Shown here in pieces: positions 2,493 to 54,615 of a DNA stretch of 64,000 bases. Origin of the DNA: Polynucleobacter sp. AP-Jannik-300A-C4 (GTDB lineage Bacteria; Pseudomonadota; Gammaproteobacteria; Burkholderiales; Burkholderiaceae). Made by a program: the position numbers and the translations under genes. The notes under the pieces are model-generated. The model saw only the letters and a program-made list of their open reading frames with translations. It made no database searches and was not told the origin of the DNA. The DNA lies in NCBI RefSeq assembly GCF_018688335.1, contig NZ_CP061316.1, positions 1,674,001 through 1,738,000 of the forward strand, in the 5' to 3' direction. Numbering within the stretch: position 1 is the stretch's first letter; the number at the start of each line of letters is the position of its first letter.

Positions 2493-2500
2493 GTCTTTAT

Positions 2501-3778
2501 ATGCAAACTCAATTAGCTCCCCAATTCGCCAATACTCCTGAAGGAATAGAGGCCGCCAGAATTCTTGGAAAATGTGTGCACTGTGGCTTCTGCACTGCTA
2601 CTTGCCCCACCTATCAAATTCTGGGTGATGAACTCGATGGCCCACGTGGTCGTATCTACCTCATCAAGCAGATGGCTGAAGGGCAAGTGCCGACTGAAAA
2701 AACACGCATGCATTTAGATCGCTGCTTAACTTGCCGCAATTGCGAAAGCACTTGCCCAAGCGGTGTGCAATACGGCAACTTGGTGGATATTGGTCGCAAG
2801 TGGGCAGAAGAAAACACTCCTGAGCGCCCTCTTGGCCAGCGCCTCACCCGCTGGGCTTTAAAAGAAGGTTTAACCAGCCCTACATTATTTAATTCAGCGA
2901 TGGCAATTGGTCGCTTAGTTCGCCCACTGATGCCGGCTGGCATCCAACGCAAGATTCCAGAAGCTAAAAATAAAGCATTAGCTAGACACACCGATCCTTA
3001 CGCCAGGCCACAAGCAAGTCACTCTCGTAAGATGCTCTTACTCGAGGGTTGCGTACAGCCAGGCATGCTGCCAAATATCAACTCAGCAACGGCACGTGTT
3101 CTAGATGCACTCAAGATTCAACTGATTAGCGCGTCTAATGCCACATGTTGTGGCGCACTGCGTTACCACCTTAACGATCAAGCTGGTGGCCTTGATAACG
3201 CCAAACAAAATATCGATGCCTGGTGGCCACAAGTGGAACAAGGTGTGGAGGCCATCGTCATGACTGCATCTGGTTGTGGCGTCATGGTCAAAGACTATGG
3301 CCATCTATTTGCAAATGATCCGCAATATGCAAGTAAAGCAAAGATGATCTCTGATCTCACGAAAGATATTTCAGAAATCTTGCCGTCACTTGAGGGCGAG
3401 TTGATTTCTCTGGTGGGTGCAGATCCCAAGCCTGGCGTGGTGTATCACCCACCTTGCACACTTCAACATGGTCAACAAATTCGCGGGAAGGTAGAAGGCC
3501 TGCTAGCTAGTATTGGTATTGGTGTGCGCTTATGCGCTGATAGCCACCTCTGCTGCGGTTCTGCAGGCACCTACTCGGTAACCCAGCCAGAGCTCTCAGA
3601 GCAGTTACGCCATAACAAGCTTGCCCACCTCAATGCCGCTTGCGAAGAGTCTGGTGCGAAAGTCATTGTGTCTGGAAATATTGGTTGCATCACCCATCTG
3701 CAGCAAGATGACACCCCAGTACTACATTGGATCGAGATTGTTGATCAACTTATCAGTCAACAAGGCCAAACCAAATAA
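2501..3778 (+). CDS. glcF: Glycolate oxidase iron-sulfur subunit GlcF
   Basis: The electron-transfer subunit takes electrons from the GlcDE flavins toward the respiratory chain. Two ferredoxin-type 4Fe-4S motifs are visible, with cysteines at 25, 28, 31, 35 and 75, 78, 81, 85. Two CCG-domain cysteine clusters follow (ATCCGALRYH and HLCCGSAGTYS), as in GlcF and heterodisulfide reductase D-like proteins. It is 425 residues, normal for the family. It begins 8 bases after glcE and ends overlapping yggS (TAATG), so the transcript probably runs glcDEF-yggS-proC. Confidence 0.94.
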   Translation: MQTQLAPQFANTPEGIEAARILGKCVHCGFCTATCPTYQILGDELDGPRGRIYLIKQMAEGQVPTEKTRMHLDRCLTCRNCESTCPSGVQYGNLVDIGRKWAEENTPERPLGQRLTRWALKEGLTSPTLFNSAMAIGRLVRPLMPAGIQRKIPEAKNKALARHTDPYARPQASHSRKMLLLEGCVQPGMLPNINSATARVLDALKIQLISASNATCCGALRYHLNDQAGGLDNAKQNIDAWWPQVEQGVEAIVMTASGCGVMVKDYGHLFANDPQYASKAKMISDLTKDISEILPSLEGELISLVGADPKPGVVYHPPCTLQHGQQIRGKVEGLLASIGIGVRLCADSHLCCGSAGTYSVTQPELSEQLRHNKLAHLNAACEESGAKVIVSGNIGCITHLQQDDTPVLHWIEIVDQLISQQGQTK

Positions 3779-4503
3779 TGAGTCAAATTACTACCAACCT
3801 GATGTTGGTAAGGCGAAGGTTAGAACTGGCAGCGCTAGCAGCTAAACGTGAGCCAGAAGACATTCAACTGCTTGCGGTAAGTAAAACTTTTCCAGCAATA
3901 GCGGTTGAAGAAGCTATGCATGCTGGTCAGACTGCCTTTGGTGAGAACTATGTTCAAGAAGGTGTTGAAAAAATTCAGCAACTTGCGAAGTTGCGTCCTT
4001 GGCTAGAGTGGCATTTCATTGGTCCACTTCAGAGCAATAAAACGCGAGATGTCGCAGAACATTTTGATTGGGTACACAGTATTGACCGACTCAAAATTGC
4101 AGAGCGCCTTTCGACTCAACGCGGAGAATTTCCTGATTTGGGTGAACTGCAAGTCTGCGTTCAAATTAATGTGAGTGAAGAAGAATCTAAAAGTGGAATA
4201 TCGCTTGAGGAAGTTGAAACGCTTTGTGATGCCGTAGCAAAACTCCCCAATCTGGTACTTCGTGGACTGATGGCTATCCCCGCGCCCAGCGATGATGTAA
4301 GCCAACAGCGCCGAGCCTTTGCTGCTGTCAGGGAGTGTTTTGTCGGACTTAAAGCAAAGCATAGTAATGATCTTGGGTATGACTTCTTCGACACCCTCTC
4401 CATGGGAATGTCGGACGATATGGAGGCAGCAATTGCTGAAGGCAGCACCATGTTACGTATAGGAAGCGCTATTTTTGGGAAGCGCGATAAGATAAAAATA
4501 TGA
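3778..4503 (+). CDS. yggS: PLP homeostasis protein (YggS/PLPBP family)
   Basis: This is a single-domain, alanine-racemase-like TIM barrel that binds pyridoxal 5'-phosphate and keeps PLP and amino/keto-acid pools balanced; it has no known catalytic activity. The PLP lysine is Lys36 in LLAVSKTFPA, matching Lys36 of E. coli YggS. FGENYVQE, WHFIGPLQSNK and the C-terminal LSMGMSDDMEAAI phosphate-binding stretch are all present. At 241 residues it is normal length. It overlaps glcF upstream and proC downstream (ATGA), and the yggS-proC pairing is common in proteobacteria. Confidence 0.94.
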   Translation: MSQITTNLMLVRRRLELAALAAKREPEDIQLLAVSKTFPAIAVEEAMHAGQTAFGENYVQEGVEKIQQLAKLRPWLEWHFIGPLQSNKTRDVAEHFDWVHSIDRLKIAERLSTQRGEFPDLGELQVCVQINVSEEESKSGISLEEVETLCDAVAKLPNLVLRGLMAIPAPSDDVSQQRRAFAAVRECFVGLKAKHSNDLGYDFFDTLSMGMSDDMEAAIAEGSTMLRIGSAIFGKRDKIKI

Positions 4504-5360
4504 GCACACAACAAACAAACCAAAATGCCCACATCACCTTTATTGGCGGTGGCAATATGGGCCGCGCATTAATTAGCGGATTACTCGCCAACGGTTTTGA
4601 AGCCAAACAACTTTCTGTAGTGGAAGCCAATGCGAGCACGGGCCTGCAATTGCATCAAGATTTTGGCGTACAGATTATTGGTGCTTTGGATCAAATTGCT
4701 TTTGATTTCTCTAAAAATAATGTTGTAGTTATGGCGATTAAGCCTCAGGACTTCAATGTAGTAGCGAAGTCTTTAAATGCGAAACTGAAACATGCAACAG
4801 CGCCAGGTCCGTTGATCCTCAGCATTGCGGCTGGTATTCGCCTCAAAGACATGAGTCGCTGGCTTGACCACGCACGTTGTGTTCGCGCTATGCCAAATAC
4901 TCCCGCCCTCATCGGCAAAGGTATTACAGGTCTATTTGCAGATGTTGGCGTCAGCGCATCTGATCGTGCTCTAGCAGAAACCATTTGCAATGCAGTTGGC
5001 CAAGCAGTATGGGTCAATGAAGAAAAACTCATGGATGCTGTTACTGCGGTTTCTGGAAGTGGCCCCGCCTATGTTTTTGCTTTCTTGGAAGCCATGCAAT
5101 CCAGCGGTGAAAAGCTTGGACTTGATGCAGTCACTGCTCGCAAACTAGCTTACGCCACCCTAGAAGGTGCCACACAGCTTGCCCATAACTCCGATGAGCA
5201 TGCAGGCGTACTGCGTGAACGAGTGACATCTAAAGGCGGCACAACTGCTGCAGCACTCGATACACTCAAGCAACTTGATTGGCATGGTGCACTTGAAAAA
5301 GCAATTGATGCTGCCAGTCAACGTGGCAAAGCTATGGGCGATGAACTAGGCAAGACCTAA
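4500..5360 (+). CDS. proC: Pyrroline-5-carboxylate reductase
   Basis: ProC catalyses the last step of proline synthesis, reducing 1-pyrroline-5-carboxylate with NAD(P)H in the cytoplasm. The N-terminal Rossmann motif [15 protein letters not shown] lies near residues 14-28. [12 protein letters not shown], the substrate loop [10 protein letters not shown] near 185 and the dimer-domain signature near 245 ([16 protein letters not shown]) are family hallmarks. It is 286 residues long and overlaps yggS by 4 bases. Its last 15 bases overlap the 3' end of ubiA on the opposite strand, so the two transcripts converge with no spacer. Confidence 0.95.
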
Positions 5361-6209
5361 AAGGATTCCAAGAAAAAGGAATCCGCCTAACCAGTTGTTG
5401 TGGCGAAATGCCTTGAAGCAATCCTCACGCTTGCGGGTCGATACTAGTTTCAGATGATAGATGGCGCAAGTTAAAGCCAGACACCAACCCACCCAAAAGT
5501 AATTATTGAGATTTGCCAACTGGGCAACCCAAGCTTGGCTGAGGAATAGTACGCCGTAACTCAGTGCAATTGCGAGCACGTCAAAGCGACCAAAAGTAAT
5601 GGCTGAAGTGCGCAAGCCCAAACGCAAATCATCATCACGATCAACCATTGCGTAAGCCGTGTCATAAGCAATGGCCCAGAAAATATTGCCGACAAACAAA
5701 ATCCAAGCCTCAAGAGGAATAAAGCCAAGAACTGCGGCATAGGCCATCGGAATGCCGAAACCAAAAGCAATACCAAGAACGGCTTGCGGAATCGCAAAGA
5801 AACGCTTCGTAAAGGGATAGAGAATCGCAACTGCCAAGGCAAAGAAAGAGAGTTCTTTAGTCAGGGCATTGAGGGGTTGAATAAGTAAGTAGGCTATCAA
5901 GGCTAAAGTGGCCGCTACAACCAGAGCCTCTTTTCCAGAAATCTTGCCACTGGTAATCGGTCGATCCTTAGTCCTCAAAACATAGCGATCAAAATCTTGA
6001 TCCGCATAATCATTGATGGCACAACCAGCACTACGCATTAAAAATGTACCCAAGGCAAAAATAATCAGCAGATGGAACTCAGGAAGGCCGCCACTCGCCA
6101 ACCAAAGCGCCCACAAAGTTGGCCACAATAGAAGTAGCGTGCCGATCGGCTTATCTAGACGGATTAAGTAGGCGTAAGCAACAATGCGATTGCGCATCAA
6201 ATCAATCAT
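5346..6209 (-). CDS. ubiA: 4-hydroxybenzoate octaprenyltransferase
   Basis: UbiA is an integral-membrane prenyltransferase that attaches the polyprenyl tail to 4-hydroxybenzoate in ubiquinone synthesis. Two Asp-rich Mg-diphosphate motifs are present, [11 protein letters not shown] followed by RTKDRP, and [32 protein letters not shown] is the usual N-terminal signature and there are about eight hydrophobic segments. I chose the ATG at 6209, which leaves 18 residues before DKPIG, close to E. coli UbiA; the frame reaches a TTG at 6224. It ends inside the 3' end of proC, and recG lies just upstream on the same strand. Confidence 0.94.
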
Positions 6210-6244
6210 CTTTCTTTTAAACAATCATGCTCATGATCGCATTA

Positions 6245-8332
6245 TCAAGCTTTTAGAAATTCAGTACGAGATCCAAGCCAACGCTCAAGATGTCTTTCTA
6301 CCAACTCTCCATGCTCGGCCAGCAAACGCTCAGCAGCCATCTGCGCTAATTCAATCAACCAGGCGTCCCGCTGAAGATCAACGAAACGCAACATAGCATC
6401 ACCAGATTGCTTGGCTCCCAATAACTCGCCAGGACCGCGTAGTGATAAATCGCGCTCAGCAATCACAAAGCCATCCGAAGTCTCTCGTAAGGTTTGTAAG
6501 CGCTCTTTAGCGGCTAAAGATAGAGGCTCTGCATACATCAAGATGCAAACTGAATCTGCCGAACCGCGCCCTACACGCCCACGTAACTGATGGATTTGCG
6601 CATACCCAAAACGTTCAGCATGCTCGATCACCATGAGAGCTGCATTGGGAACATCCACCCCCACCTCAATCACTGTAGTTGCAACTAAGAGCTGGATTTC
6701 ATTGGCTTTGAAGGCTGCCATCACTGCAGCTTTTTCTTCACTCTTTAAGCGACCATGCACTAAACCCACTTTGAAATTTGGTAATGCTTGCGTGAGCTGC
6801 TCAAAACTTTCAACTGCAGTTTGTAATTGCAATACCTCTGACTCTTCAATCAAAGGGCATACCCAATAAGCTTGCAGTCCCTTTGCTAGCCAATCATGCA
6901 AACCGCTAATCACCTCATCTCTTCGCGCCGCCTTGACTACTTTGGTGGCAATCGGTTTTCTACCAGGAGGTAATTCATCAATGACTGAAACATCTAAGTC
7001 AGCGTAATAGGTCATTGCCAAAGTCCGTGGAATCGGAGTGGCCGACATCATCAATTGGTGACAATAGAATAGTTCCGAGCCAACGCGTTGCTGAATCTCT
7101 AGACGCTGCCTCACACCAAAACGATGTTGCTCATCAATCACCGCTAAACCTAACTTAGCAAAGCTCACCTTATCCTGAATAAGAGCATGCGTACCAATAA
7201 TCAGCTGAGCCTCACCACCCTCAATCATTTCTTGGGCAAGTCTTTTCTCTTTAGCCTTCAAGCTGCCTGAGAGCCAAGCAATCTTGACACCAAGAGGTCC
7301 AAACCACTCTTGCATTTTGAGATAGTGTTGCTCCGCCAGAATTTCTGTTGGCGCCATGATGGCGGCTTGATAGCCATGATCCATGGCGCGTGCAGCAGCT
7401 AATGCAGCAATCACGGTTTTTCCACTACCCACATCGCCTTGCAATAGGCGATTCATCGGAAAGGTGTTGGATAGATCGGCACCAATCTCGGCCCAGACTC
7501 GGGATTGAGCGCCAGTCAACTTAAAGGGTAAAACTTTCAGCAAGCCATCTTCAATACTGGTAGTTTTTTTGCTTACCTTACTTGCTGGCTGATCCTTTGC
7601 AAAACTAGGAGCGCGTCTTTCTCTACGAATGGCATGAGCCCGCTTTAAAGAAATCTGCTGCGCGAGCAATTCTTCAAACTGAACACGACGCCAAGCAGAA
7701 TGGGTCCGATCTAGAAGTGATTGAGTATTGGCATCTGCGGGTGGCTGATGTAAATAGGTAATCGCATCTTGCAGCGGTGGCCAATCATTGCTTGGCAATA
7801 TTTCTGCCATGAGTTTGGTGGGTAAAAATTCCGCCAAACTTTCTTTCAAACTTGAATCACGTAAAGCTTGTAAGACTGCCTTACGAATAACTGTTTGCGA
7901 GACACCTGCACTTGCAGGATAGACCGGGGTCAAACTTGCTGGCAATGGTGCATCTGGAGTCAAGGCCCGAACTATAGGGTGAACCATTTCAGAGCCTTGA
8001 TAGCCTTCTCGAACCTCACCTCGAACTCGGACATGGGCACCGACTGCCATTTGCTTTTGCTGGCTCGGGTAAAAATTGAGGAAACGGAGCTGTAGCGAAG
8101 CGGTGTCATCCTCAATCGTGACCAGGAGCTGCCTTCTAGGGCGGAACATGACCTGATTGCGAATGACAACACCCTGGGTTTGGATGGAATGAAATCTTCC
8201 AAGGGCTAAGGCTTCCTCGATAGTGAAAAGCTCAGTCTCATCCTCGTAACGGGATGGCAGGTGCAAAGCAAGTGCCATAGGGCTGTTTAAACCCATCTTT
8301 TCGAGTGCAGTTGGCGGTCGCTTAGTCGTCAT
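6245..8332 (-). CDS. recG: ATP-dependent DNA helicase RecG
   Basis: RecG remodels stalled replication forks and branch-migrates Holliday junctions. An N-terminal wedge/OB domain is followed by a superfamily 2 helicase core: Walker A GDVGSGKTVIAALAAA, motif Ia MAPTEILAEQH, DEQH box, MSATPIPRTLA, and C-terminal HGRLKSEEK with the QLRGRVGRG motif VI. The frame extends upstream to a TTG, but the ATG at 8332 gives 695 residues, the family norm, and leaves 30 bases to the divergent queA. It is probably cotranscribed with ubiA, 36 bases downstream. Confidence 0.95.
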   Translation of the reverse strand: MTTKRPPTALEKMGLNSPMALALHLPSRYEDETELFTIEEALALGRFHSIQTQGVVIRNQVMFRPRRQLLVTIEDDTASLQLRFLNFYPSQQKQMAVGAHVRVRGEVREGYQGSEMVHPIVRALTPDAPLPASLTPVYPASAGVSQTVIRKAVLQALRDSSLKESLAEFLPTKLMAEILPSNDWPPLQDAITYLHQPPADANTQSLLDRTHSAWRRVQFEELLAQQISLKRAHAIRRERRAPSFAKDQPASKVSKKTTSIEDGLLKVLPFKLTGAQSRVWAEIGADLSNTFPMNRLLQGDVGSGKTVIAALAAARAMDHGYQAAIMAPTEILAEQHYLKMQEWFGPLGVKIAWLSGSLKAKEKRLAQEMIEGGEAQLIIGTHALIQDKVSFAKLGLAVIDEQHRFGVRQRLEIQQRVGSELFYCHQLMMSATPIPRTLAMTYYADLDVSVIDELPPGRKPIATKVVKAARRDEVISGLHDWLAKGLQAYWVCPLIEESEVLQLQTAVESFEQLTQALPNFKVGLVHGRLKSEEKAAVMAAFKANEIQLLVATTVIEVGVDVPNAALMVIEHAERFGYAQIHQLRGRVGRGSADSVCILMYAEPLSLAAKERLQTLRETSDGFVIAERDLSLRGPGELLGAKQSGDAMLRFVDLQRDAWLIELAQMAAERLLAEHGELVERHLERWLGSRTEFLKA

Positions 8333-8362
8333 CGTTAAAATCCAATACCTGATGGTAATGCT

Positions 8363-10553
<2,191 letters not shown>

Positions 10554-10697
10554 TAGCCCTAGAGCATCAATGGGCACCCCCTGTTGATCTGAAATCAGCC
10601 CTCCAAGCCCCATACAGTTTAGAATTGCGGGTTTACGGCTTTGCTTAAAAGCCTAAAACTGAAGCATTTTCCAATTGGTAACTAATGGAGGTTTTGT

Positions 10698-11024
10698 ATG
10701 TGGATTAGTAACGCTTTTGCCCAGGCTCCAGCCGCGGGTGCAGATTCTGGTGGCTTAATGAGCTTCCTTCCCCTGATTTTGATGTTTGTAGTTTTGTACT
10801 TCATCATGATTCGCCCACAAATGAAGCGTCAAAAAGAAACTAAAGCAATGCTTGAGTCCCTTTCTGTTGGCGATGAAGTAGTGACTGTTGGCGGCATCAT
10901 GGGAAAAGTGACTGCATTGAAAGATCAAGTGGTAACTGTTGAAATTTCTGCCGGCACTGAAGTACAAATGCAAAAAGTCGCCATTACAACAGTATTGCCA
11001 AAAGGCTCAATGAAGTCTGCTTAA
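10698..11024 (+). CDS. yajC: Preprotein translocase subunit YajC
   Basis: This small inner-membrane accessory protein of the SecDF complex has 108 residues. One hydrophobic segment at about residues 21-40 (FLPLILMFVVLYFIMIRPQ) is followed by the conserved RPQMKRQKE and a soluble tail with GDEVVTVGGIMGKV. A good ribosome-binding site (GGAGG) sits about 9 bases before the ATG. It lies 25 bases before secD, and the three genes look like one operon. Confidence 0.94.
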   Translation: MWISNAFAQAPAAGADSGGLMSFLPLILMFVVLYFIMIRPQMKRQKETKAMLESLSVGDEVVTVGGIMGKVTALKDQVVTVEISAGTEVQMQKVAITTVLPKGSMKSA

Positions 11025-11049
11025 TAAGCTTGTTTAAAAGTATCTCGAT

Positions 11050-12909
11050 ATGAATCGCTATCCCCTCTGGAAATACATAGTCATCCTATTTGCTTTGCTA
11101 ATTGGAGGACTATATTCATTACCTAATTTCTACGGAGAGGCTCCAGCGGTTCAAGTCTCGTCCGCCAAGCCAACCACTAAGGTTGATTTGGCGACACAGT
11201 CTCGAGTCGAAAAGATTCTGACTGAAGACAACATTAGCAATACCGGCATCTTCTTTGAATCCACAGGCAATGTAGGTTCAATCAAAATTCGCTTCAACAA
11301 TACCGATATTCAATTGCTTGCGCGTGACTTGCTGCAACAGAAATTGAATATTGATCAAAATGATCCCAATTTCACAGTTGCATTAAACCTACTCTCCAAT
11401 ACACCGAGTTGGCTCAATGCACTTAATGCATTACCAATGCCTTTAGGTCTGGACTTGCGTGGTGGCGTTTACTTCTTGCTACAAGTCGATATGAAGGGCG
11501 CAGTTCAAAAGAAAGTAACTTCTTTAGCCACTGATATTCGTAGTCAGTTGCGTGACAAATCAATTCGTCAACAAGGGATTGAACGCGGTCAAGACAGTAT
11601 TACCTTAACTTTTGGTAGCACTGAGGATGCTGAAAGAGCACGTTCAGTTTTGATGGCTAGTCAGCCTGATCTGACCTGGCAGATTAAGCCTACAGGGCTA
11701 TCACCAAAACTCGTAGGCGAATTTAAGCCAACCTCCTTAAAAGAAATCCAAGATAGCGCAGTAAAACAGAATATCGTGACGCTCAATAAGCGCGTCAATG
11801 AATTGGCTGTAAAAGAGCCAGTCATTCAGCAACAAGGTGCAGAGCGTATTGTGGTTCAGCTACCAGGCGTTCAAGATACAGCTCGTGCCAAAGACATCAT
11901 TGGTCGCACAGCAACACTGGAGTCCAGATTAGCCGATCCCATCGTCTCTACGATTGCGATTGGCGAGACCCCTCCCCCAGGCATGGATGTTTTCCGCTTT
12001 GGCGAAAACCGTCAAGGCGTATTCAAAAAATCGGTGATCTTTAGTGGCGATCGCATTACGGATGCAAGCGCAGGCTTTGATCAAAACCAACGCCCTGCAG
12101 TGAACATTTCTTTAGATGCGGCTGGTGGTCGCGTAATGCAAGAAGTAACCCGTGAAAACATTGGCAAGCCGATGGGCATGATCTTGTTTGAAAAAGGCAA
12201 AGGTGAGGTTCTCACAATTGCCACCATTCAAAGTGAGTTTGGCTCCAAGTTTCAGATTACTGGTCAACCAACTACTGAGAGTGCGAATGATTTGGCGCTC
12301 TTATTGCGCGCGGGCTCCTTAGCAGCCCCAATGGAAATCATTGAAGAGCGCACAATCGGACCAAGCCTTGGTGCTGAAAATATTGAGAAAGGGTTTAAAT
12401 CTCTCATCATTGGTTTTGCAGCAATCGCTATTTTCATGATTGCCTACTACCTGTTGTTTGGTACTTTCTCAGTTGTGGCACTAGCAGTGAACTTATTACT
12501 CTTAATCTCCGTTTTATCCATGTTGCAAGCCACCTTAACCTTGCCAGGAATTGCTGCGATGGCATTGGCGCTAGGTATGGCGATTGACTCCAACGTATTA
12601 ATCAACGAGCGTATTCGTGAGGAGCTACGCAATGGCGCAGCCCCGCAAACAGCTATTGCTATCGGCTTTGATAAAGCCTGGGCAACTATCTTGGATTCAA
12701 ACATCACCACCTTAATTGCCGGTCTTGCATTGCTTACATTTGGCTCTGGCCCAATCAAAGGCTTCGCAGTAGTGCATTGCCTTGGTATTTTGACTTCCAT
12801 GTTTTCAGCGGTCTTTTTCTCACGTGGCCTGGTTAACCTCTGGTACGGCAGAGGTAAAAAAGTTCAGAAACTCGCTATCGGCCAAGTTTGGCGTCCTCAG
12901 GAGAAATAA
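11050..12909 (+). CDS. secD: Protein translocase subunit SecD
   Basis: SecD uses the proton motive force to pull proteins out of the SecYEG channel on the periplasmic side. One N-terminal transmembrane helix is followed by the P1 domain (GLDLRGGVYFLLQVD near residue 135) and five C-terminal helices with LGMAIDSNVLINERIREE. The 619 residues match E. coli SecD. It begins 25 bases after yajC and ends 3 bases before secF. The start MNRYPLWKYIVI is typical of betaproteobacterial SecD. Confidence 0.95.
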   Translation: MNRYPLWKYIVILFALLIGGLYSLPNFYGEAPAVQVSSAKPTTKVDLATQSRVEKILTEDNISNTGIFFESTGNVGSIKIRFNNTDIQLLARDLLQQKLNIDQNDPNFTVALNLLSNTPSWLNALNALPMPLGLDLRGGVYFLLQVDMKGAVQKKVTSLATDIRSQLRDKSIRQQGIERGQDSITLTFGSTEDAERARSVLMASQPDLTWQIKPTGLSPKLVGEFKPTSLKEIQDSAVKQNIVTLNKRVNELAVKEPVIQQQGAERIVVQLPGVQDTARAKDIIGRTATLESRLADPIVSTIAIGETPPPGMDVFRFGENRQGVFKKSVIFSGDRITDASAGFDQNQRPAVNISLDAAGGRVMQEVTRENIGKPMGMILFEKGKGEVLTIATIQSEFGSKFQITGQPTTESANDLALLLRAGSLAAPMEIIEERTIGPSLGAENIEKGFKSLIIGFAAIAIFMIAYYLLFGTFSVVALAVNLLLLISVLSMLQATLTLPGIAAMALALGMAIDSNVLINERIREELRNGAAPQTAIAIGFDKAWATILDSNITTLIAGLALLTFGSGPIKGFAVVHCLGILTSMFSAVFFSRGLVNLWYGRGKKVQKLAIGQVWRPQEK

Positions 12910-12912
12910 GTC

Positions 12913-13887
12913 ATGGAATTTTTCCGGATTAAAAAAGATATTCCCTTCATGCGCCATGCATTGGCGCTCAATGCGGTTTCTCTCATCACCTTCTTAGCCG
13001 CCGTTTTCTTCCTCTGGCATAACGGCCTCCACCTATCAATTGAATTTACTGGCGGTACGGTTATGGAGGTTACTTATCCACAAACCGCTCCTTTAGATTC
13101 AATTAGATCGAATGTGGAAAAGTTAGGCTATTCAGATACTCAGATTCAGAACTTTGGCAGCTCACGTGATGTGATGATTCGCCTACCACTCCAAAAAGAT
13201 GCTGAAGGAAAAATGATTTCCTCTGCAGATCAAAGCGCAGCAGTGATGCAAGCGCTGGAGCCAGCAACTACTGGAGCGAAGCTACAGCGTGTGGAGTTCG
13301 TAGGCCCCCAAGTAGGCCGTGAACTCGCGATTGATGGATTAATGGCTTTGTTGTTTGTAGTAATTGGCATCGTGGTTTACCTTTCCTTCCGCTTCGAGTG
13401 GAAATTTGCTGTTGCCGGCATCATTGCGAACTTACATGACATCGTCATTATTTTGGGCTTCTTTGCTTTCTTCCAATGGGAATTCTCACTCTCCGTATTG
13501 GCTGCAGTACTCGCCGTGCTGGGTTACTCGGTCAATGAGTCAGTGGTGATCTTTGACCGTATTCGCGAAAACTTCCGTAAGTACCGCAAAATGAATACCC
13601 GCGAAATTATTGATAACGCCATAACCAGCACCATTAGCCGTACCGTGATTACTCACGGCAGTACTGAGATGATGGTCTTGGCAATGTTGATTTTTGGTGG
13701 TCCTACCCTCTTCTACTTTGCCTTAGCGCTGACCATCGGTATTTTGTTCGGTATTTATTCTTCTGTATTCGTTGCTGCAGCTTTAGCAATGTGGCTTGGT
13801 GTTACTCGTGAAGATTTAGTGAAGGGTGACAAGAAGCCGGATGATACTGCTCGCAATGATAATCCTAACTTCGGGGCTCAGGTCTAA
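12913..13887 (+). CDS. secF: Protein translocase subunit SecF
   Basis: SecF is the partner of SecD in proton-driven protein export. It has 324 residues with six predicted membrane helices. The N-terminal SIEFTGGTVMEV is the FTGG signature, and the C-terminal half carries LGYSVNESVVIFDRIREN, the SecF version of the RND helix-4 motif. The spacer of 3 bases after secD implies coupled translation. It converges on waaA with only 28 bases between stops, and no terminator hairpin is evident there. Confidence 0.95.
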   Translation: MEFFRIKKDIPFMRHALALNAVSLITFLAAVFFLWHNGLHLSIEFTGGTVMEVTYPQTAPLDSIRSNVEKLGYSDTQIQNFGSSRDVMIRLPLQKDAEGKMISSADQSAAVMQALEPATTGAKLQRVEFVGPQVGRELAIDGLMALLFVVIGIVVYLSFRFEWKFAVAGIIANLHDIVIILGFFAFFQWEFSLSVLAAVLAVLGYSVNESVVIFDRIRENFRKYRKMNTREIIDNAITSTISRTVITHGSTEMMVLAMLIFGGPTLFYFALALTIGILFGIYSSVFVAAALAMWLGVTREDLVKGDKKPDDTARNDNPNFGAQV

Positions 13888-13915
13888 GTTTGCTACCAAG
13901 CAATTAAAAACGTAG

Positions 13916-16725
<2,810 letters not shown>

Positions 16726-16768
16726 TTAGGGGCAACCCAATTTGGCTGAGATAGCTATACTTAGCTTT

Positions 16769-17383
16769 ATGAAACTCATCGGATCCCTCACTAGCCCATA
16801 CGTACGCAAGGTACGCATTGTTCTCCTGGAAAAAAAGGTTGATGTAGACCTAGAACTGGAAAATGTCTGGGCAGCAGATACCAAAATTGCCCTCAACAAC
16901 CCCTTAGGCAAGATCCCCTGCTTGATTTTGGATGACGGCGAGGCCATTTATGACTCCCGGGTGATTGCGGAGTATGCCGACACCCTTAGTCCTGTTAGCA
17001 AGCTTATTCCAGCTGGTAGCCGTGAGCGGGCAGCAGTTAAGACCTGGGAAGCCCTGGCTGACGGGGTTGAAGATGCAGGAATTTTAGCCCGTTTAGAGGT
17101 GACTTTGCGCCCACTAGAGCAGCAGAGCCCTGAATGGGTCAATCGCCAAATGGGCAAAATCAATGCTGCTTTAGCCCAAATGTCCCGTGCCTTAGGTGAA
17201 AACGCCTGGTGTCACGGCAACCAGATGACTTTGGCTGATATTGCGGTGGGATGTGCACTGGGTTACATGCTCTTTCGCTTCCCAGATGTCACTTGGCAAG
17301 CTCAATACCCCAATCTAGACGCTCTGTATCAAAAGTTAATGCAGAGACCTTCATTTGCTGAAACAGCGCCTCCAGCAGCCTAA
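16769..17383 (+). CDS. Glutathione S-transferase family protein
   Basis: This cytosolic GST of about 204 residues has an N-terminal thioredoxin-like domain (MKLIGSLTSPYVRKVRI; NPLGKIPCLILDDGEAIYDSRVIAEY, the glutathione site) and an all-helical C-terminal domain with TLADIAVGCALGY. The frame extends to an upstream TTG, but the ATG at 16769 matches the family start exactly. The physiological substrate cannot be read from sequence. It stands alone between divergent purB and convergent mnmA. Confidence 0.88.
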   Translation: MKLIGSLTSPYVRKVRIVLLEKKVDVDLELENVWAADTKIALNNPLGKIPCLILDDGEAIYDSRVIAEYADTLSPVSKLIPAGSRERAAVKTWEALADGVEDAGILARLEVTLRPLEQQSPEWVNRQMGKINAALAQMSRALGENAWCHGNQMTLADIAVGCALGYMLFRFPDVTWQAQYPNLDALYQKLMQRPSFAETAPPAA

Positions 17384-17417
17384 TTAAGCAATTACTACTG
17401 AAGTATGTGAGGGGTGC

Positions 17418-18572
17418 TTAGGCGGAAATAATTCCACCACCCAAGCAAATGTCACCGTCATACAGAACGGCAGACTGGCCAGGCGTTACTGCCCACTGAG
17501 CCTCGGGAAAAGCCAGCTCAAAGCTCAAGAGCCCCTCAGAGCCATTGGTAAGAGTGCATGCTGAGTCCGACTGACGATAACGTGTTTTTGCGGAGTACTG
17601 TCCCGGCGTAGGCGCAACCCCGGCAACCCAGCTGGCATCTATTGCTGAGAGCTGATTCGCTAAAAGCCATGGGTGCTCGTGTCCTTGTGCCACATATAGA
17701 GTGTTATTCACTACGTCTTTGCGAGCGACATACCATGCATCGCCATTGCCATCTTGACTACCACCCAAGCCAATACCTTTGCGCTGTCCTAGGGTGAAAA
17801 AGGCAAGCCCCATATGCTCTCCCACCGTTTTGCCTTCAGGGGTTTTAATGGGTCCAGGCGTACGAGGCAAGTAGCGGTTTAAGAACTCACGGAAGGGGCG
17901 TTCGCCAATAAAGCAAATGCCAGTGGAATCTTTTTTGCGCGCATTGTGTAAGCCAATTTGCTCAGCAATCTTGCGCACTTCCGTCTTTGGGATCTCCCCA
18001 AGTGGAAAAAGAACGCTTGCCAATTGCGTTTGGGTTAAGCGATGCAAGAAGTAACTTTGATCCTTGCTGGCATCAAGCGCCTTCAATAATTGCACTTGAC
18101 CACCTTCATGTCGAACCCGTGCATAGTGGCCAGTAGCAATAGCATCTGCACCCAAACTGATGGCATGGTCTAAAAAGGCTTTGAACTTAATTTCTGCATT
18201 GCACAACACATCGGGATTAGGTGTTCTGCCAGCTGCATATTCCCGTAAAAACTCCGCAAAAACGCGCTCCCGGTACTCGGCGGCAAAATTGACTGCCTCA
18301 ACATCAATTCCGATCAGGTCTGCTACGGACACCACATCCAACCAATCCTGGCGGGCAGAGCAATACTCATCATTGTCATCGTCTTCCCAGTTTTTCATGA
18401 AAAGACCAATCACTTCATAGCCTTGCTGCTTGAGCATCCAGGCCGCAACAGACGAATCCACCCCCCCAGACATTCCGATCACGACTTTGGATGGCTTAGA
18501 AGCTGGTATAGCGGAAGAATTGAGGGTGATCATCAAAAAATGCGAGAATTCAATATAAGCTGAAAACCTCAT
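17418..18572 (-). CDS. mnmA: tRNA-specific 2-thiouridylase MnmA
   Basis: MnmA makes the 2-thio group of s2U34 in tRNA Lys, Glu and Gln using ATP and sulfur passed from the cysteine desulfurase relay. The PP-loop [18 protein letters not shown], the first catalytic Cys in [12 protein letters not shown], the second in [17 protein letters not shown], and [11 protein letters not shown] are all present. Two in-frame ATGs are possible. The first, at 18572, has an AAGG ribosome site 8 bases upstream; the second, at 18533, gives a length nearer the family (371 residues) but has no visible ribosome site. It converges with the GST gene. Confidence 0.94.
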
Positions 18573-23733: not shown

Positions 23734-23842
23734 TCCTTCTCCTATGTTAGTAAGTGTTAACTAATTAAAAAACCAATATAAATCAATATGTTGCAGTCTC
23801 TTAACACGAAGGCAACAAGCTTTTCAGCTGAATAAGCCTGTT

Positions 23843-23869
23843 TTAGCACTCGCGTGTAGGGAGTGCTGA
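23843..23869. promoter_or_regulatory. CIRCE operator (HrcA-binding site)
   Basis: The inverted repeat TTAGCACTC-N9-GAGTGCTGA matches the CIRCE consensus (TTAGCACTC-N9-GAGTGCTAA) with one mismatch. It lies 110-136 bases upstream of groS and begins at the edge of the groE -10 box, a good place for HrcA repression. No hrcA gene is in the window. Confidence 0.93.
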
Positions 23870-23898
23870 TTATATAGGTCTGATTCTAGGGATTTCAA
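23869..23898 (-). promoter_or_regulatory. Promoter of groSL
   Basis: On the minus strand TTGAAA (23893-23898) and TATAAT (23869-23874) are separated by 18 bases. The -35 region reads CCTTGAAA, which also resembles the heat-shock sigma-32 -35 box (CTTGAAA), so dual sigma-70/sigma-32 use is possible. The -10 abuts the CIRCE operator. Confidence 0.72.
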
Positions 23899-23917
23899 GG
23901 GCAAATTCACCTTAAAT

Positions 23918-23946
23918 TTCAAAGGGAATCCTGCGCTTTCTATAAT
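23918..23946 (+). promoter_or_regulatory. Candidate promoter of the EAL-RR-kinase operon
   Basis: TTCAAA (23918-23923) and a perfect TATAAT (23941-23946) are spaced 17 bases apart, pointing toward the gene at 24051. The -35 lies in one copy of a direct repeat (ATTTCAAGGG at 23892-23901, ATTTCAAAGGG at 23916-23926). The other copy supplies the -35 of the divergent groE promoter. The predicted leader is about 100 bases. Confidence 0.6.
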
Positions 23947-24050
23947 GCAGGCAGGCAAGTAGGTAGATTCCTACATATAAATAAGCCTTAAGCCCTTACA
24001 GCTCCAATCTGTCCTGCCTAGACTGGCTATTCAATGATTGGAGAATGCTG

Positions 24051-24878
24051 ATGAGCCCGAAATCCCGGCTGTACACGCTTGTAAAGGCTTGGAAGAACAA
24101 ACCCTTCCAAGAAGTGCGCGACGCCTGTGGCCAGCCTTGGCTAGGTCTTAGCGGTGAAGTACTCGAAGAACACCAATCCTGGTCACAGCGACAAGCGATT
24201 AGCAACGAACCCATCTTTAATAGCCAAGGAAGTAAGCTGACAAGCTCTTTATTTAGACCATTACTGACTGCCACCGATACACAACTCCTCAGATTGTTCA
24301 TGGAAGGCTTGGATACGATTACCTACTGGTACCGTAGTGGTCGCTTCATTCCTGGCATCTTGCCTTTGCAAGCGCAACACCTAGCTTCAGCCAACTTCAT
24401 TGATGCTCTCAGCGACCTCATCCTGAACTCACGACTTCCGGTTGGTCTTATCAGCTTGGGTGTGCACAAACTCAAGGATGCCGACTCCATGCATTCCTGC
24501 ATGGAGGGCATATTGAGAATGCGCCGTCTCGGCGTTCTGATTCATCTTCTCGAATTTTCTGGAAGTAGCTCTCAAATCCGGTGGATTGAAGAGATGGAGC
24601 CTGAAGGCATTCATATCGAGATGGGGCAATTCCGTACTAATGGCTTACCAAATGAAATGGTCCTCCTAGGTCAGAAATTTCATAGCCAGATCTACGCCAG
24701 CAATATCACCCTAGTAAAGGATTTAGAAAACGCCATGGCTATGGGATCGCACCACTGCTATGGCGGCCTGATGATGCCACCAGTTAGTCGACATCAAATG
24801 CTACACACGAGCGATAGCCGTATCGCTAAGGCCATTTTTTCGCTGCACCCTCATAAAAACCTAAACGGAGACAAGTAA
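24051..24878 (+). CDS. Degenerate EAL-domain protein, BvgR-like
   Basis: A 275-residue soluble protein whose residues from about 75 to 255 follow the order of an EAL (cyclic-di-GMP phosphodiesterase) barrel: LPLQAQHLASANFIDAL, ILRMRRLGVLIHLLEF (the LGxxxxLDDFG strand), PEGIHIEMGQF (the DxIKID strand) and a final HHCYGGLMMPPVS (the QGYxxxxP turn). The metal- and substrate-binding residues at these places are replaced and the EAL tripeptide is absent, so it is probably catalytically dead. The start at 24051 has GGAG 7 bases upstream; the ATG at 24045 is too close to it. The stop overlaps the response-regulator start (TAATG). BvgR of Bordetella is likewise an EAL-type protein beside bvgAS; orthology is my inference. 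Confidence 0.72.
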   Translation: MSPKSRLYTLVKAWKNKPFQEVRDACGQPWLGLSGEVLEEHQSWSQRQAISNEPIFNSQGSKLTSSLFRPLLTATDTQLLRLFMEGLDTITYWYRSGRFIPGILPLQAQHLASANFIDALSDLILNSRLPVGLISLGVHKLKDADSMHSCMEGILRMRRLGVLIHLLEFSGSSSQIRWIEEMEPEGIHIEMGQFRTNGLPNEMVLLGQKFHSQIYASNITLVKDLENAMAMGSHHCYGGLMMPPVSRHQMLHTSDSRIAKAIFSLHPHKNLNGDK

Positions 24879-25501
24879 TGAGAAAACGCGTGATGTTGGT
24901 AGATGACCATCCAGCAATGCTGATGGCATTAAAAAGTATGTTGCAAGATCAATTGCTTTTTGAGATAGCAGGACAAGCGCAGCATGGGGAAGAGTGTCTA
25001 CGCTCAATCAAAGAAGTCAATCCCAATATGGTGATCTTAGATTTAGATATGCCCAAGACCGATGGCTTTGATGTCATTCGCCGGATTGGCTTGATGCACC
25101 CTGACGTTCGCATTCTCGTTTTATCCAGCTTAGATGAAGCTGTCTATGGCGGTAGAGTGCGATCCTTAGGTGCTCATGGTTTTGTCAATAAGACCGCTGG
25201 TGCCGATGTCATTCTGGCTGCATGTGTTGCTATCTCGCAGGGATATACGTTTTTCACGCATGGGAAGAACGGCAACACCTCTTTAAGTGACAACGACAAA
25301 TTGGCGCTGATATCCGATCGCGAACTGCAAGTCATGAAGTATCTCGGCAAAGGTAATACCAATCAGCAGATATCAGACTTACTACATATCAGCAATAAGA
25401 CTGTGGCGACTTATAAGACTAGAGTCTTTGACAAACTAGGCATTAACAATATTGCCGATTTGATCTTGTTCTGCCGCATGAACAACATCATCGAAAGCTA
25501 A
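24878..25501 (+). CDS. NarL/FixJ-family response regulator, BvgA/EvgA-like
   Basis: A 207-residue two-domain regulator. The receiver has the acidic pair Asp9-Asp10, phospho-acceptor Asp55 (VILDLDMPK) and Lys105 (GFVNKTAG). The LuxR-type helix-turn-helix spans about 143-200 (ISDRELQVMKYLGKG, then ISNKTVATYKTRVFDKLG). From memory the closest family match is Bordetella BvgA, including the SNKTV-TYKTR recognition-helix region and a GYTFF stretch between the domains. It overlaps the EAL gene by one base and precedes the sensor by 7 bases, so it is presumably phosphorylated by it. Confidence 0.88.
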   Translation: MRKRVMLVDDHPAMLMALKSMLQDQLLFEIAGQAQHGEECLRSIKEVNPNMVILDLDMPKTDGFDVIRRIGLMHPDVRILVLSSLDEAVYGGRVRSLGAHGFVNKTAGADVILAACVAISQGYTFFTHGKNGNTSLSDNDKLALISDRELQVMKYLGKGNTNQQISDLLHISNKTVATYKTRVFDKLGINNIADLILFCRMNNIIES

Positions 25502-25508
25502 AGCTAGC

Positions 25509-27938
25509 ATGCATCGATTCATATTGAATAAAGTATTGGCACTCTGCTGCATCTATGGTGGCGCAACTTACGCCGGCCCCTTTAGCGCTTCAGAGCAATC
25601 ATGGATCGATGCCCACCCAGTTGTGCGATTTAGTATTCACGAAAAATATGCTCCCTATCTTGTCCAAGCCAATCAGCAAGAAAGTGCAGCACCATTTAAA
25701 GCCCTACTATCAAAAATTGAAGAATGTACCCGACAGCAATATGTAGCGGTATGGAGAAAATCTGATCAAGAAGGTTTAAAACAACTCAGCAAGGGCGATG
25801 TGGATTTCATTATTGATCCGCCTAGCATTAATGACCATGTCTTGCAATTTGGCTCTCTGTCTGAAGCTATCTTTTGGGGGCATGATGCCATTGTCACCAA
25901 GAACTCAAGCAAGCTGGATTCGCCAAGCCTAAAAATTGCCTATTTTGATCGAGGCCTTGAGAATACGCCCTCCATCTTTGATGACTATGCCAAAGATAAA
26001 GAGGCTCAGCCACCTAATGACTTGATGCAATCCCTGATCAAAAGCGATATCGAGGCATTGGTGATGCCAATCCGCTTAGCGCGTCGATTGATACAAGAAA
26101 CCCCAAGTTCAGATCTAAAAATAGATGGGCTTTACAGTCGAGATCCATTTGCCTATCGCTGGTTAATCTCAGATCAAGATGCTCCCCTGCATGATGTATT
26201 GAGTCACTTTTTAAATGACTTGGATCCCATTGCCTCACGCCAGCTCTTTGCCTTAGGCGATGAAGCTAAGCCAAAATCAAGCCTACTACCCTGGCTAAGC
26301 GCAATATTGGTATTCATTATTGGTGGGGTGATGCTCTACCAGCTCCAAAGAAAGTATTTTCATCAGAAAAAAACTGCTCTTGAGTTACTGAACTCCAAAG
26401 AATTAGCCGAAAAGGCCAATGCAGCCAAATCTGCTTTTCTCGCAACCATGAGTCACGAAATTCGCACTCCCATGAATGCCATCTTGGGAGTTCAAGAGCT
26501 GCTACTCAGTAGCGCGCAATTTCCTAAAAAAGATAAACCGCTATTAAAGAGCGCTCAAGCTTCAGCTGAATCGCTTTTAGGGATGCTCAATCAAGTACTG
26601 GATATTTCTAAGATTGAAGCTGGCAAACTCACCCTCAATCTAGAACCGTGCAATCCACATCAATTGATCATGGATATTCATGCGGCGTTCTCCACAGTAG
26701 CCCAGAAACAAAATCTTCTTCTACATACCTCGATTGACCCCAGAATCGCTGAAGTTCTGATGATTGATTCATTGCGTCTACGACAAGTTCTGCAAAACTT
26801 ACTGAGCAACGCAATTAAGTTCACCAAGGAAGGTGAGGTGTACTTTTCCACCACCGTACTGGCAGATGATCATGCTGGCCAATTACTTGAGTTCAGAGTA
26901 ATCGATACTGGGGTGGGCATGGGCAGCGAGCAAATTAAATTGGCTCTGCAAGCTTTTGAGCAATTACCGACTACGCAGGAGTCTTGCCAATCTGAACAAG
27001 CGAGGGGTACAGGGCTGGGACTGACCATCACCAATCATCTAGTGAACTCCATGAACAGTCATCTCTACTTTGAAAGCGCTCCAGGCTTTGGAAGTAATGT
27101 TCACTTTTCGGTGGCCTTTCCTAGAACGAGTATTGCTGCTCCCCAGCCTACTAGCTTCGACTCATTAGAATCGCCATCCAAAAACTTGATCTCGAAAAGG
27201 GTGGGAAGGAAAAATTGCTCCATTCATGCCTTAGTAGTGGAAGATCACCCAGCCAGCCGACAAATTTTGTCTTTGCAATTAGAGGCGTTAGGAATACACA
27301 CCCATGTTTGTGAGAATGCTGCCGTTGCACTCATGCTGCTGAAAGACCACCATTTTGATCTCATGCTCACAGATCAGTCTATGCCCGGAATGCAAGGTTC
27401 TGAATTGGCTAAACAAATCCGATCCCTGGGTAATCGTGAATTAGTCATTATTGCTGTCACAGCCGATATTTACGCTTTAGACTCCCGCCACCAATTTTTA
27501 TCCTCCGGTATGAATGGCGTGCTCATCAAGCCGCTAAGTCTTGGTGCTCTTGAGAATGAACTCATGCGCTATTTTGAGTCTAGCCAAGACCCCGTCTGTA
27601 GTAATGAGGTCTACTCATTTGACGCTTTCTCAAATCTCATTAAAGACGATCCCCGCCAAATCGTCGTAATCCTGGAAGAAATTGAAAAGGTACATCTAGA
27701 AGTTTTGAGTCAGCTCCAGTTAAATAGTGGTCAAGCCCCTATCAACGAGGCACAGTTTCGAAGCCTGGTTCATAAAGTCAAAGGCGGGGCACAACTGTTG
27801 CAAGCCAACGAATTTATCCATGCCTGTGAATCGCTTGAAATTGAGGGGCCACTTTCAGATCGCATAGATCAATTCCTCACCCTACTCGAAGAACAAAATC
27901 AAACTATCGAGACTTATAAGAAAAGATATCGGCATTAA
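25509..27938 (+). CDS. Hybrid sensor histidine kinase, BvgS/EvgS-type
   Basis: This 809-residue sensor has an N-terminal signal segment (1-22), one periplasmic Venus-flytrap domain (about 26-250, SBP_bac_3-like), a membrane helix (about 258-279), a HisKA domain with His316 in MSHEIRTPMN, a HATPase domain (Asn434; DTGVG 466-470; GTGLGL 500-505), a receiver with Asp622 (LTDQSMPG) and Lys674, and an HPt domain with His755 (LVHKVKGGAQLL). The His-Asp-His chain plus flytrap sensor is the BvgS/EvgS plan, but with one flytrap instead of two and no PAS between membrane and kinase. It should pass phosphate to the adjacent response regulator. The ligand is unknown. Confidence 0.88.
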   Translation: MHRFILNKVLALCCIYGGATYAGPFSASEQSWIDAHPVVRFSIHEKYAPYLVQANQQESAAPFKALLSKIEECTRQQYVAVWRKSDQEGLKQLSKGDVDFIIDPPSINDHVLQFGSLSEAIFWGHDAIVTKNSSKLDSPSLKIAYFDRGLENTPSIFDDYAKDKEAQPPNDLMQSLIKSDIEALVMPIRLARRLIQETPSSDLKIDGLYSRDPFAYRWLISDQDAPLHDVLSHFLNDLDPIASRQLFALGDEAKPKSSLLPWLSAILVFIIGGVMLYQLQRKYFHQKKTALELLNSKELAEKANAAKSAFLATMSHEIRTPMNAILGVQELLLSSAQFPKKDKPLLKSAQASAESLLGMLNQVLDISKIEAGKLTLNLEPCNPHQLIMDIHAAFSTVAQKQNLLLHTSIDPRIAEVLMIDSLRLRQVLQNLLSNAIKFTKEGEVYFSTTVLADDHAGQLLEFRVIDTGVGMGSEQIKLALQAFEQLPTTQESCQSEQARGTGLGLTITNHLVNSMNSHLYFESAPGFGSNVHFSVAFPRTSIAAPQPTSFDSLESPSKNLISKRVGRKNCSIHALVVEDHPASRQILSLQLEALGIHTHVCENAAVALMLLKDHHFDLMLTDQSMPGMQGSELAKQIRSLGNRELVIIAVTADIYALDSRHQFLSSGMNGVLIKPLSLGALENELMRYFESSQDPVCSNEVYSFDAFSNLIKDDPRQIVVILEEIEKVHLEVLSQLQLNSGQAPINEAQFRSLVHKVKGGAQLLQANEFIHACESLEIEGPLSDRIDQFLTLLEEQNQTIETYKKRYRH

Positions 27939-54538: not shown

Positions 54539-54615
54539 TGGTGGCGAATCAGGGATTTGAACCCCGGACCTGCGGATTATGATTCCGTCGCTCTAACCAG
54601 CTGAGCTAATTCGCC
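54539..54615 (-). tRNA. tRNA-Met (anticodon CAT)
   Basis: A 77-base cloverleaf with encoded CCA. Acceptor GGCGAAT/ATTCGCC, D arm GCTC/GAGC, anticodon loop ATCATAA (CAT at 54579-54581), T arm CGGGG/CCCTG with TTCAAAT. The first anticodon-stem pair (27-43) is A-C mismatched. It lacks the three G-C pairs of initiator tRNA, so it is elongator Met; tRNA-Ile2 (CAT read as lysidine) is an alternative but less like the stem seen. Confidence 0.93.

Follow-up and report, generated by a model that had tools for sequence, protein, structure and literature searches.

An EvgAS/BvgAS/Roc-like operon with a degenerate EAL-fold protein in Polynucleobacter

In a 64,000-nucleotide stretch of the Polynucleobacter sp. 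AP-Jannik-300A-C4 genome (NZ_CP061316.1, positions 1,674,001 to 1,738,000; hereafter the window, numbered from its first letter), three plus-strand open reading frames (ORFs) are packed tightly at 24051-27938, between divergent groES/groEL genes and a gene for a PBP4-type peptidase. They encode a degenerate EAL-fold protein, an EvgA/FimZ-type response regulator and an unorthodox hybrid sensor kinase with a Venus flytrap (Table 1). We think it fairly probable that this is a genus-wide operon of the EvgAS/BvgAS/Roc kind, in which a non-catalytic EAL protein acts by protein contact and not through cyclic di-GMP (c-di-GMP). Sequence comparison establishes the parts and their order, the catalytic loss, the selection on the EAL gene, its co-occurrence with the regulator and its retention in genomes with no GGDEF match. 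On a stronger version, for which the balance is about even, a BvgR-like dead EAL protein would be wholly independent of c-di-GMP, its dedicated role being co-regulation or anti-regulation of a single response regulator under extreme constraint. What is new here is an EvgAS/BvgAS/Roc-like relay whose dead EAL partner persists regardless of detectable c-di-GMP synthases, and whose regulator is unusually constrained in most of the genus. Polynucleobacter is described as being among the most abundant freshwater bacteria (PMC7522526), and a full-text literature search returned no study of the operon, as far as titles and the openings of abstracts reveal.

Organization and conservation of the operon

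The source genome is a single contig of 1,998,164 bases, and its near relatives are Polynucleobacter. The mechanical ORF of the EAL gene begins at 24045, but a GGAG at 24040-24043 ends 7 nt ahead of the ATG at 24051, and the ATG at 24045 follows it by just 1 nt, which makes 24051 the likelier start. The ATG of the regulator overlaps the EAL stop codon by one base (TAATG), and the kinase gene starts 7 nt past the end of the regulator. The same set in the same order was found in 56 loci (L003-L058) from Polynucleobacter or from metagenome-assembled genomes (MAGs) of Burkholderiaceae or Betaproteobacteria. These loci were located through kinase peptides that led to near relatives, with exclusion of L059, a weak kinase match from Enterococcus; the EAL gene was unmatched in L043 at the threshold used. 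Such recurrence argues that the gene set is not a product of chance. The original prediction of three overlapping or abutting genes in one operon, with the EAL gene first and in a non-pathogen background, is thus confirmed, the host genus being non-pathogenic.

The regulator is intact in all 56 loci, the kinase in 51 (three are cut by contig edges, and L013 and L058 are broken) and the EAL gene in 52. The EAL exceptions are L032, at a contig edge, L009, L033 and L043; the last of these has unlike sequence upstream of the regulator, with the final EAL codons only, and is probably a misjoined MAG contig. At the operon, Rfam gave no family, its single match reaching 17 bits against a cut-off of 37.3; elsewhere it found a tRNA at 54542.

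The EAL protein has lost its catalytic positions

The Pfam EAL match in the first gene is weak (17 bits, E 0.0039, under the cut-off of 31.3). A profile search of solved structures with the protein nevertheless returned nine ordinary EAL domains at E 0.0004 to 0.1, with RocR second, and its AlphaFold model matches EAL domains, led by BifA (E 3.7e-11) and followed by MorA, FimX, MucR, RocR and others. In a profile alignment with the intact REC-EAL proteins of loci L163-L166 (see below), P107, G139, K142, L169, E170, H190, S219 and Y239 occupy the sites that are canonically N, E, E, D, D, K, E and Q, so that none of the eight aligned metal or catalytic positions is kept in the window's protein. 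The glutamate of the EAL motif lies outside this alignment, and L69 corresponds to it by eye only. Because the catalytic and metal positions are replaced, activity as a canonical phosphodiesterase is very unlikely on sequence grounds, and the original description of the EAL domain as degenerate is borne out.

Ten EAL sequences, with identity down to 22%, share the invariant residues P5, K6, L9, L12, W16 and P20 of a conserved basic N-terminal leader that precedes the EAL-like domain. Further residues invariant in the same ten are G88, Y94-W95, L131, G134-L135, R161, G163 and Y239-G240. The Pfam scan found no REC domain in the protein, unlike the REC-EAL partner of the Roc/Sad system.

The EAL gene is kept in genomes without a GGDEF match

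Among 40 genomes of the genus, 38 carry the regulator (E 1e-30), and each of the 38 gives an EAL-family match (without the gene start in G050, broken in G264). Of the two regulator-less genomes, G194 gave no match to EAL, and G094, where the regulator has been deleted, retains EAL fragments with stops. No GGDEF match was detected in eight of the 40, seven of which (G182, G218, G230, G253, G259, G269 and G279) retain both the EAL gene, in an open frame in every case, and the regulator. The ratio of nonsynonymous to synonymous substitution rates (dN/dS) of the EAL gene is 0.079-0.111 in four GGDEF-less pairs, which cover five of these seven genomes, and 0.067-0.101 in three GGDEF-bearing pairs; two mixed pairs gave 0.095 and 0.112. 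Since the gene is kept without any GGDEF match, c-di-GMP control is unlikely to be the general job of the EAL protein. Retention under constraint in GGDEF-less genomes also leads us to favor a protein-contact role, similar to that of YdiV, over one based on c-di-GMP.

The best-surviving alternative, which we consider unlikely, is that the protein is a non-hydrolysing c-di-GMP receptor, as proposed for BvgR, and feeds the level of the messenger into the regulator. Such a role would suit the GGDEF matches found in 32 of the 40 genomes, the window's own included, where the single GGDEF protein has an intact RWGGDEF motif. It would also suit the ability of degenerate EAL domains to bind c-di-GMP, as given in a review that proposes a non-catalytic effector model for BvgR (PMC12805831). 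It has to be reconciled, however, with the seven GGDEF-less genomes that keep the gene, with equal selection in the five measured, and with the loss of all eight aligned positions in the window's protein. In addition, the window's own genome has no HD-GYP, PilZ or EAL match at E 1e-3, HD-GYP and PilZ having been searched in this genome only.

Some further observations concern these gene families. EAL domains above the Pfam cut-off occur in eight of the 40 genomes, and in G200 the match is the operon's own gene. In the window's genome, the gene for the GGDEF protein (L002, 1228-1995) and an RpoN-like gene, named by eye, are adjacent and convergent. In G094, the operon has decayed (locus L124), with the regulator and most of the kinase deleted and the EAL gene broken; the other GGDEF and EAL genes of this genome are also fragmented.

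The regulator is of the EvgA/FimZ type and strongly constrained

Pfam detects Response_reg (82 bits) and GerE (64.5 bits) in the regulator, where D9, D10, D55 and K105 are present and a LuxR-type helix-turn-helix lies at 145-198. Its best NCBIfam model is EvgA, at 140.9 bits against a cut-off of 251, and the equivalog threshold is therefore missed. In a tree of 39 regulators, ten Polynucleobacter rows form one clade with P0173 and P0217 (100/99), nested in a group with EvgA and FimZ (99/97), and NarL, NarP, UvrY and RcsB fall outside; the rows were hand-picked, BvgA and RocA1 are absent, and RcsB, UvrY, EvgA and one outside row were flagged as long branches. This phylogeny places the protein, originally described as a BvgA-like member of the NarL family, with EvgA and FimZ and away from NarL itself.

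Identity to the window was compared in 52 of the 56 loci, in groups of 19 and 33; four loci whose kinase match covered less than 70% of its length were excluded, as were individual genes with less than 70% coverage. In the 33 loci with kinase identity below 70%, the median amino-acid identity of the regulator is 95.2%, while 62.7% of its compared fourfold sites differ. The corresponding medians are 97.1% for GroEL (25 loci), 96.9% for GroES (25), 78.6% for PBP4 (31), 69.7% for the EAL protein (31) and 62.7% for the kinase. For the 19 nearer loci, regulator identity is 99.5%, and 46.9% of fourfold sites differ. Nine pairs gave a regulator dN/dS of 0 to 0.018. The main-clade regulator is about as conserved as GroEL, and because fourfold sites have diverged and dN/dS is low, this reflects constraint on the protein and not recent transfer. 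Recombination as the source of the conservation was rejected on the same fourfold divergence (one dS, at 3.0, is saturated). The regulator may be a master regulator of Polynucleobacter.

The sensor flytrap resembles those of BvgS and EvgS

The kinase has Pfam matches to HisKA (59.3 bits), HATPase_c (73.3 bits) and Response_reg (75.9 bits); Hpt reaches 18.5 bits, under its cut-off of 24.6, yet the motif HKVKGG is there. The phosphoacceptors H316 (HisKA), D622 (REC) and H755 (Hpt) are all present. The periplasmic Venus flytrap spans about 22-260 (some 240 residues, room for one), and a transmembrane helix was placed by eye at about 262-283. The flytrap went undetected in Pfam scans of the kinase. 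A profile built from 38 sensors, however, picks up the periplasmic domain of EvgS (2.8e-5; structure 9ilw) and that of BvgS (1.8e-4). With the AlphaFold model of the sensor, which is of moderate quality (mean predicted local distance difference test score, pLDDT, 60.5), the first four Foldseek matches are the second Venus flytrap (VFT2) of BvgS (3mpk, rank 1), the BvgS periplasmic domain, EvgS and a BvgS VFT2 mutant.

The likeness to BvgS that was originally predicted therefore holds in part. The phosphoacceptors of a His-Asp-His relay are present, and the flytrap is nearest to those of BvgS and EvgS. On the other hand, the flytrap is single, where BvgS has tandem ones, Pfam found no PAS domain in the kinase, and the best NCBIfam model is TorS (306.8 bits), with EvgS eighth at 196.2 bits against a cut-off of 1995.

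The kinases of a diverged clade (L115-L118) lack the periplasmic domain: similarity to kinase residues 301-306 starts about 120-130 nt past the regulator, and the ORFs are 525-538 amino acids long; the domains of the L117 kinase were scanned by Pfam. The EAL gene and the regulator are retained in this clade.

Relationship to Bvg, Roc, Evg and YdiV

Bordetella BvgA-BvgS-BvgR shares with the operon a flytrap hybrid kinase with a His-Asp-His relay, a LuxR/NarL-type regulator and a catalytically dead EAL protein, BvgA and BvgR being likened here by published description. Unlike the Bordetella system, that of Polynucleobacter has one flytrap, no PAS match and the EAL gene first in a single operon, and it belongs to a free-living genus. 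It is improbable, in our judgment, that the operon is a true environmental orthologue of BvgASR with a rearranged gene order. The three same kinds of part and the BvgS VFT2 as first fold match of the sensor are in keeping with orthology, as is BvgR itself, reported to have lost 12 of 13 EAL residues (PMC11537037). The single flytrap, the missing PAS match and the leading position of the EAL gene are not, and neither is the distribution of the regulator. A search of 399 genomes from the order turned up the regulator in 16 at E 1e-36 or better, seven of them Polynucleobacter; the nine outside the genus, of 392, have only 35-43% identity.

The best of these outside regulators form a family (f28). 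In four of the five f28 loci read (L163-L166), the regulator gene adjoins, divergently, a REC-EAL gene; the EAL domains of L163 and L166, the two that were scanned, score 210 and 218 bits, and those of L164 and L165 were assigned by alignment. No REC-EAL gene was seen in the ORF listing of the fifth (L167). Because these outside kin adjoin intact REC-EAL genes, Bvg is not alone in pairing a regulator of the EvgA type with an EAL protein, and the combination of flytrap kinase, EvgA-type regulator and EAL protein is a theme broader than Bvg.

The Pseudomonas Roc/Sad system (RocS1-RocA1-RocR) carries the same theme, with a flytrap (SBP_bac_3) unorthodox kinase, a GerE regulator and an EAL protein. 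The divergent arrangement in L163-L166 is also like that of the roc1 and roc3 loci, one report describing roc3 as two divergent regulator genes, one encoding an EAL protein, and as resembling roc1 (PMC12051241). However, RocR contains a REC domain and reportedly degrades c-di-GMP, whereas the Polynucleobacter EAL protein has neither a REC match nor the catalytic residues. With E. coli EvgAS, the operon shares EvgA as best NCBIfam match, the profile match to the EvgS periplasmic domain and a TTCYTAC half-site; in contrast, no EAL gene adjoins evgAS, EvgS has two flytrap stretches and the scores lie below the equivalog cut-offs. YdiV, likened here by published description, is an EAL-fold protein with most catalytic residues gone that acts by protein contact without c-di-GMP; it is reported neither to cleave nor to bind c-di-GMP and to block FlhDC (PMC3510510), a partner different from those considered here.

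Proposed mechanism

Based on these comparisons, the Venus-flytrap kinase would pass phosphate from H316 to D622 to H755 and on to D55 of the regulator. This EvgA/FimZ-type activator probably also controls its own operon through the palindrome GTAGG-N6-CCTAC, and the dead EAL-fold protein most likely works through contact with the regulator or the kinase, as YdiV does with FlhDC. Here the dead EAL protein and its regulator share an operon, and the protein persists in the absence of any GGDEF match, so that c-di-GMP and protein-contact models predict opposite outcomes that can be tested in an organism with a small genome. If the stronger version is correct, Polynucleobacter would offer a natural setting for learning how dead EAL proteins beside EvgA/BvgA-type regulators act.

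Besides the prevalence of GGDEF matches, several observations weigh against this model. The EAL gene is not indispensable: L009 has a frameshift in it, an element interrupts it in L033/G050 and the copy in G264 is broken, with the regulator intact in each. In G264, the EAL gene, the kinase gene and the adjacent PBP4 gene are all frameshifted; these frameshifts, which we do not interpret, are probably assembly errors. The kinase of G269, one of the GGDEF-less genomes, appears frameshifted in the piece examined. Catalytic loss is also not uniform among members, as position 170 is D in 4 of 14 close relatives (P0006, P0020, P0071 and P0076) and some members keep one canonical residue, and the EAL model has a pLDDT of 67, with residues 1-51 and 242-277 below 50. 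Finally, the near-invariance of the regulator is not genus-wide: among the 38 genomes that carry it, identity is at least 90% in 30 and 47-78% in eight, while GroEL remains at 88-95% in the eight low-identity loci read.

A relic EAL frame, whose main remaining role would be to couple translation of the regulator, is very improbable: its 3' end carries the GGAGA of the regulator and the TAATG overlap, both ends are strongly conserved in near relatives and the regulator is retained where the frame is disrupted (L009 and L033), but dN/dS is about 0.07-0.11 over the gene, residues in the N-terminal leader, YW, R161/G163 and YG are invariant across 22-72% identity, and 52 of 56 loci have an intact ORF, a contig edge accounting for one of the other four. 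The GGAGA probably accounts for the conserved C-terminal NGDK of the EAL protein.

The promoter region and a candidate regulator site

In 32 of 39 genomes, a count that excludes G194 (no EAL), the sequence TAGG-N4-TTCCTA, from the palindrome, precedes the start of the EAL match by 90 or 91 nt. Among the exceptions, G050 has it, separated by an element, and it is absent there in six, namely five genomes of the diverged clade and G200. In an alignment of 42 uninterrupted groES-EAL gaps (the window and 41 loci), the arms are constant and the center is variable, as expected of a dimer site.

The putative -10 element TAGACT sits downstream of the palindrome in a block 93% identical over 21 sequences, with a weak -35 around 23995-24001. 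If it is the -10, the center of the palindrome falls near -64 and activation of the operon by the regulator is possible; if TTCAAA-N17-TATAAT is used instead, the palindrome would lie at about +6 to +22 and the regulator could repress. Bvg promoters are described as having a strong inverted site upstream, from which additional dimers follow at 22-bp intervals as far as a poor -35 (PMC7250471), and by analogy the geometry of the operon promoter is compatible with that layout. A hairpin sequestering the Shine-Dalgarno sequence (CUCCAAUC/GAUUGGAG) was also considered for the conserved leader and rejected. It folds (z -2.21; 5 of 200 shuffles as good), but 20 distinct sequences have no two-sided pair changes, shuffles do equally well and the changes mostly break pairs; the conserved block reads better as a promoter.

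The original prediction also suggested that the system may have a regulon of its own, and motif searches of the window's genome and of the 40 genus genomes recovered none. In the window's genome, GTAGG-N4-TTCCTAC has one exact site, the operon, and 50 sites with at most two mismatches against 193 in a reversed control; the sole other site with one mismatch (L093) falls where a small coding frame begins. TAGG-N4-TTCCTA recurs at the operon in the 40 genomes and, in most of them, shows no enrichment over the reversed control. No regulon is therefore claimed. A perfect palindrome, TAGGAAATTTCCTA (G000 145597-145610; L098, L155), lies about 80 nt upstream of an MraZ-like gene, named by eye, in the window's genome, and its letters are present in other genomes of the genus. 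No TTCYTAC half-site was found in the seven gaps scanned from relatives outside the genus. The half-site in the E. coli evgA-emrK gap is a short motif in another arrangement and no more than a hint.

Upstream of groES lies an inverted repeat that we take to be the CIRCE element (Table 1).

Table 1 Features of the operon and its upstream region, in window coordinates
Feature	Position	Strand	Basis
Degenerate EAL-fold protein, 275 amino acids	24051..24878	+	Pfam EAL, profile and model matches
Conserved basic N-terminal leader of the EAL protein, MSPKSRLYTLVKAWKNKP			
EvgA/FimZ-type response regulator, 207 amino acids	24878..25501	+	Pfam, NCBIfam, tree
Unorthodox hybrid sensor kinase, 809 amino acids	25509..27938	+	Pfam, profile, fold
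Shine-Dalgarno-like GGAGA of the regulator, within the 3' end of the EAL gene	24867..24871	+	
Palindrome GTAGGTAGATTCCTAC (GTAGG-N6-CCTAC), candidate regulator site	23959..23974	+	Gap alignment, motif scans; binding putative
Candidate -10 TAGACT of the operon promoter	24019..24024	+	Tentative assignment, unlisted by the consensus promoter scan
Alternative promoter TTCAAA-N17-TATAAT	23918..23946	+	Consensus scan
Inverted repeat GCACTC-N9-GAGTGC upstream of groES	23846-23866		Largely conserved over 42 gaps

Tn7-like insertions in the groES-EAL gap

The groES-EAL gap, equivalent to 23734-24066 of the window, where it is uninterrupted, is a repeated landing site of several different Tn7-like elements. 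In the loci searched, all of which were centered on the operon or on motif, regulator or GGDEF hits, no Tn7-like matches were found elsewhere. In G050 (L176, about 310-18390), an element that measures about 18.08 kb and encodes TnsA, TniB/TnsC and TniQ lies in EAL codons 5-6, with GAAAT on both flanks; the protein at its TnsB position has no Pfam match and weak transposase matches only. In L004, the EAL gene is directly preceded by TnsA, a C-terminal domain of a Mu-type transposase, TniB and two TniQ proteins. L058 has the Mu-type domain, TniB and two TniQ proteins there, and L009 and L049 have TnsB-, TnsC- and TniQ-like matches at this place. The sequence pieces examined from L005, L006, L012, L048 and L052 showed no tns gene. 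Counted from the ATG at 24045, L004, L009, L048 and L049 diverge from the uninterrupted sequence at -151/-149, with ends alike, and the breakpoints of L005, L006, L012, L052 and L058 fall between -139 and -95. It is possible that the gap is an attachment-site hotspot.

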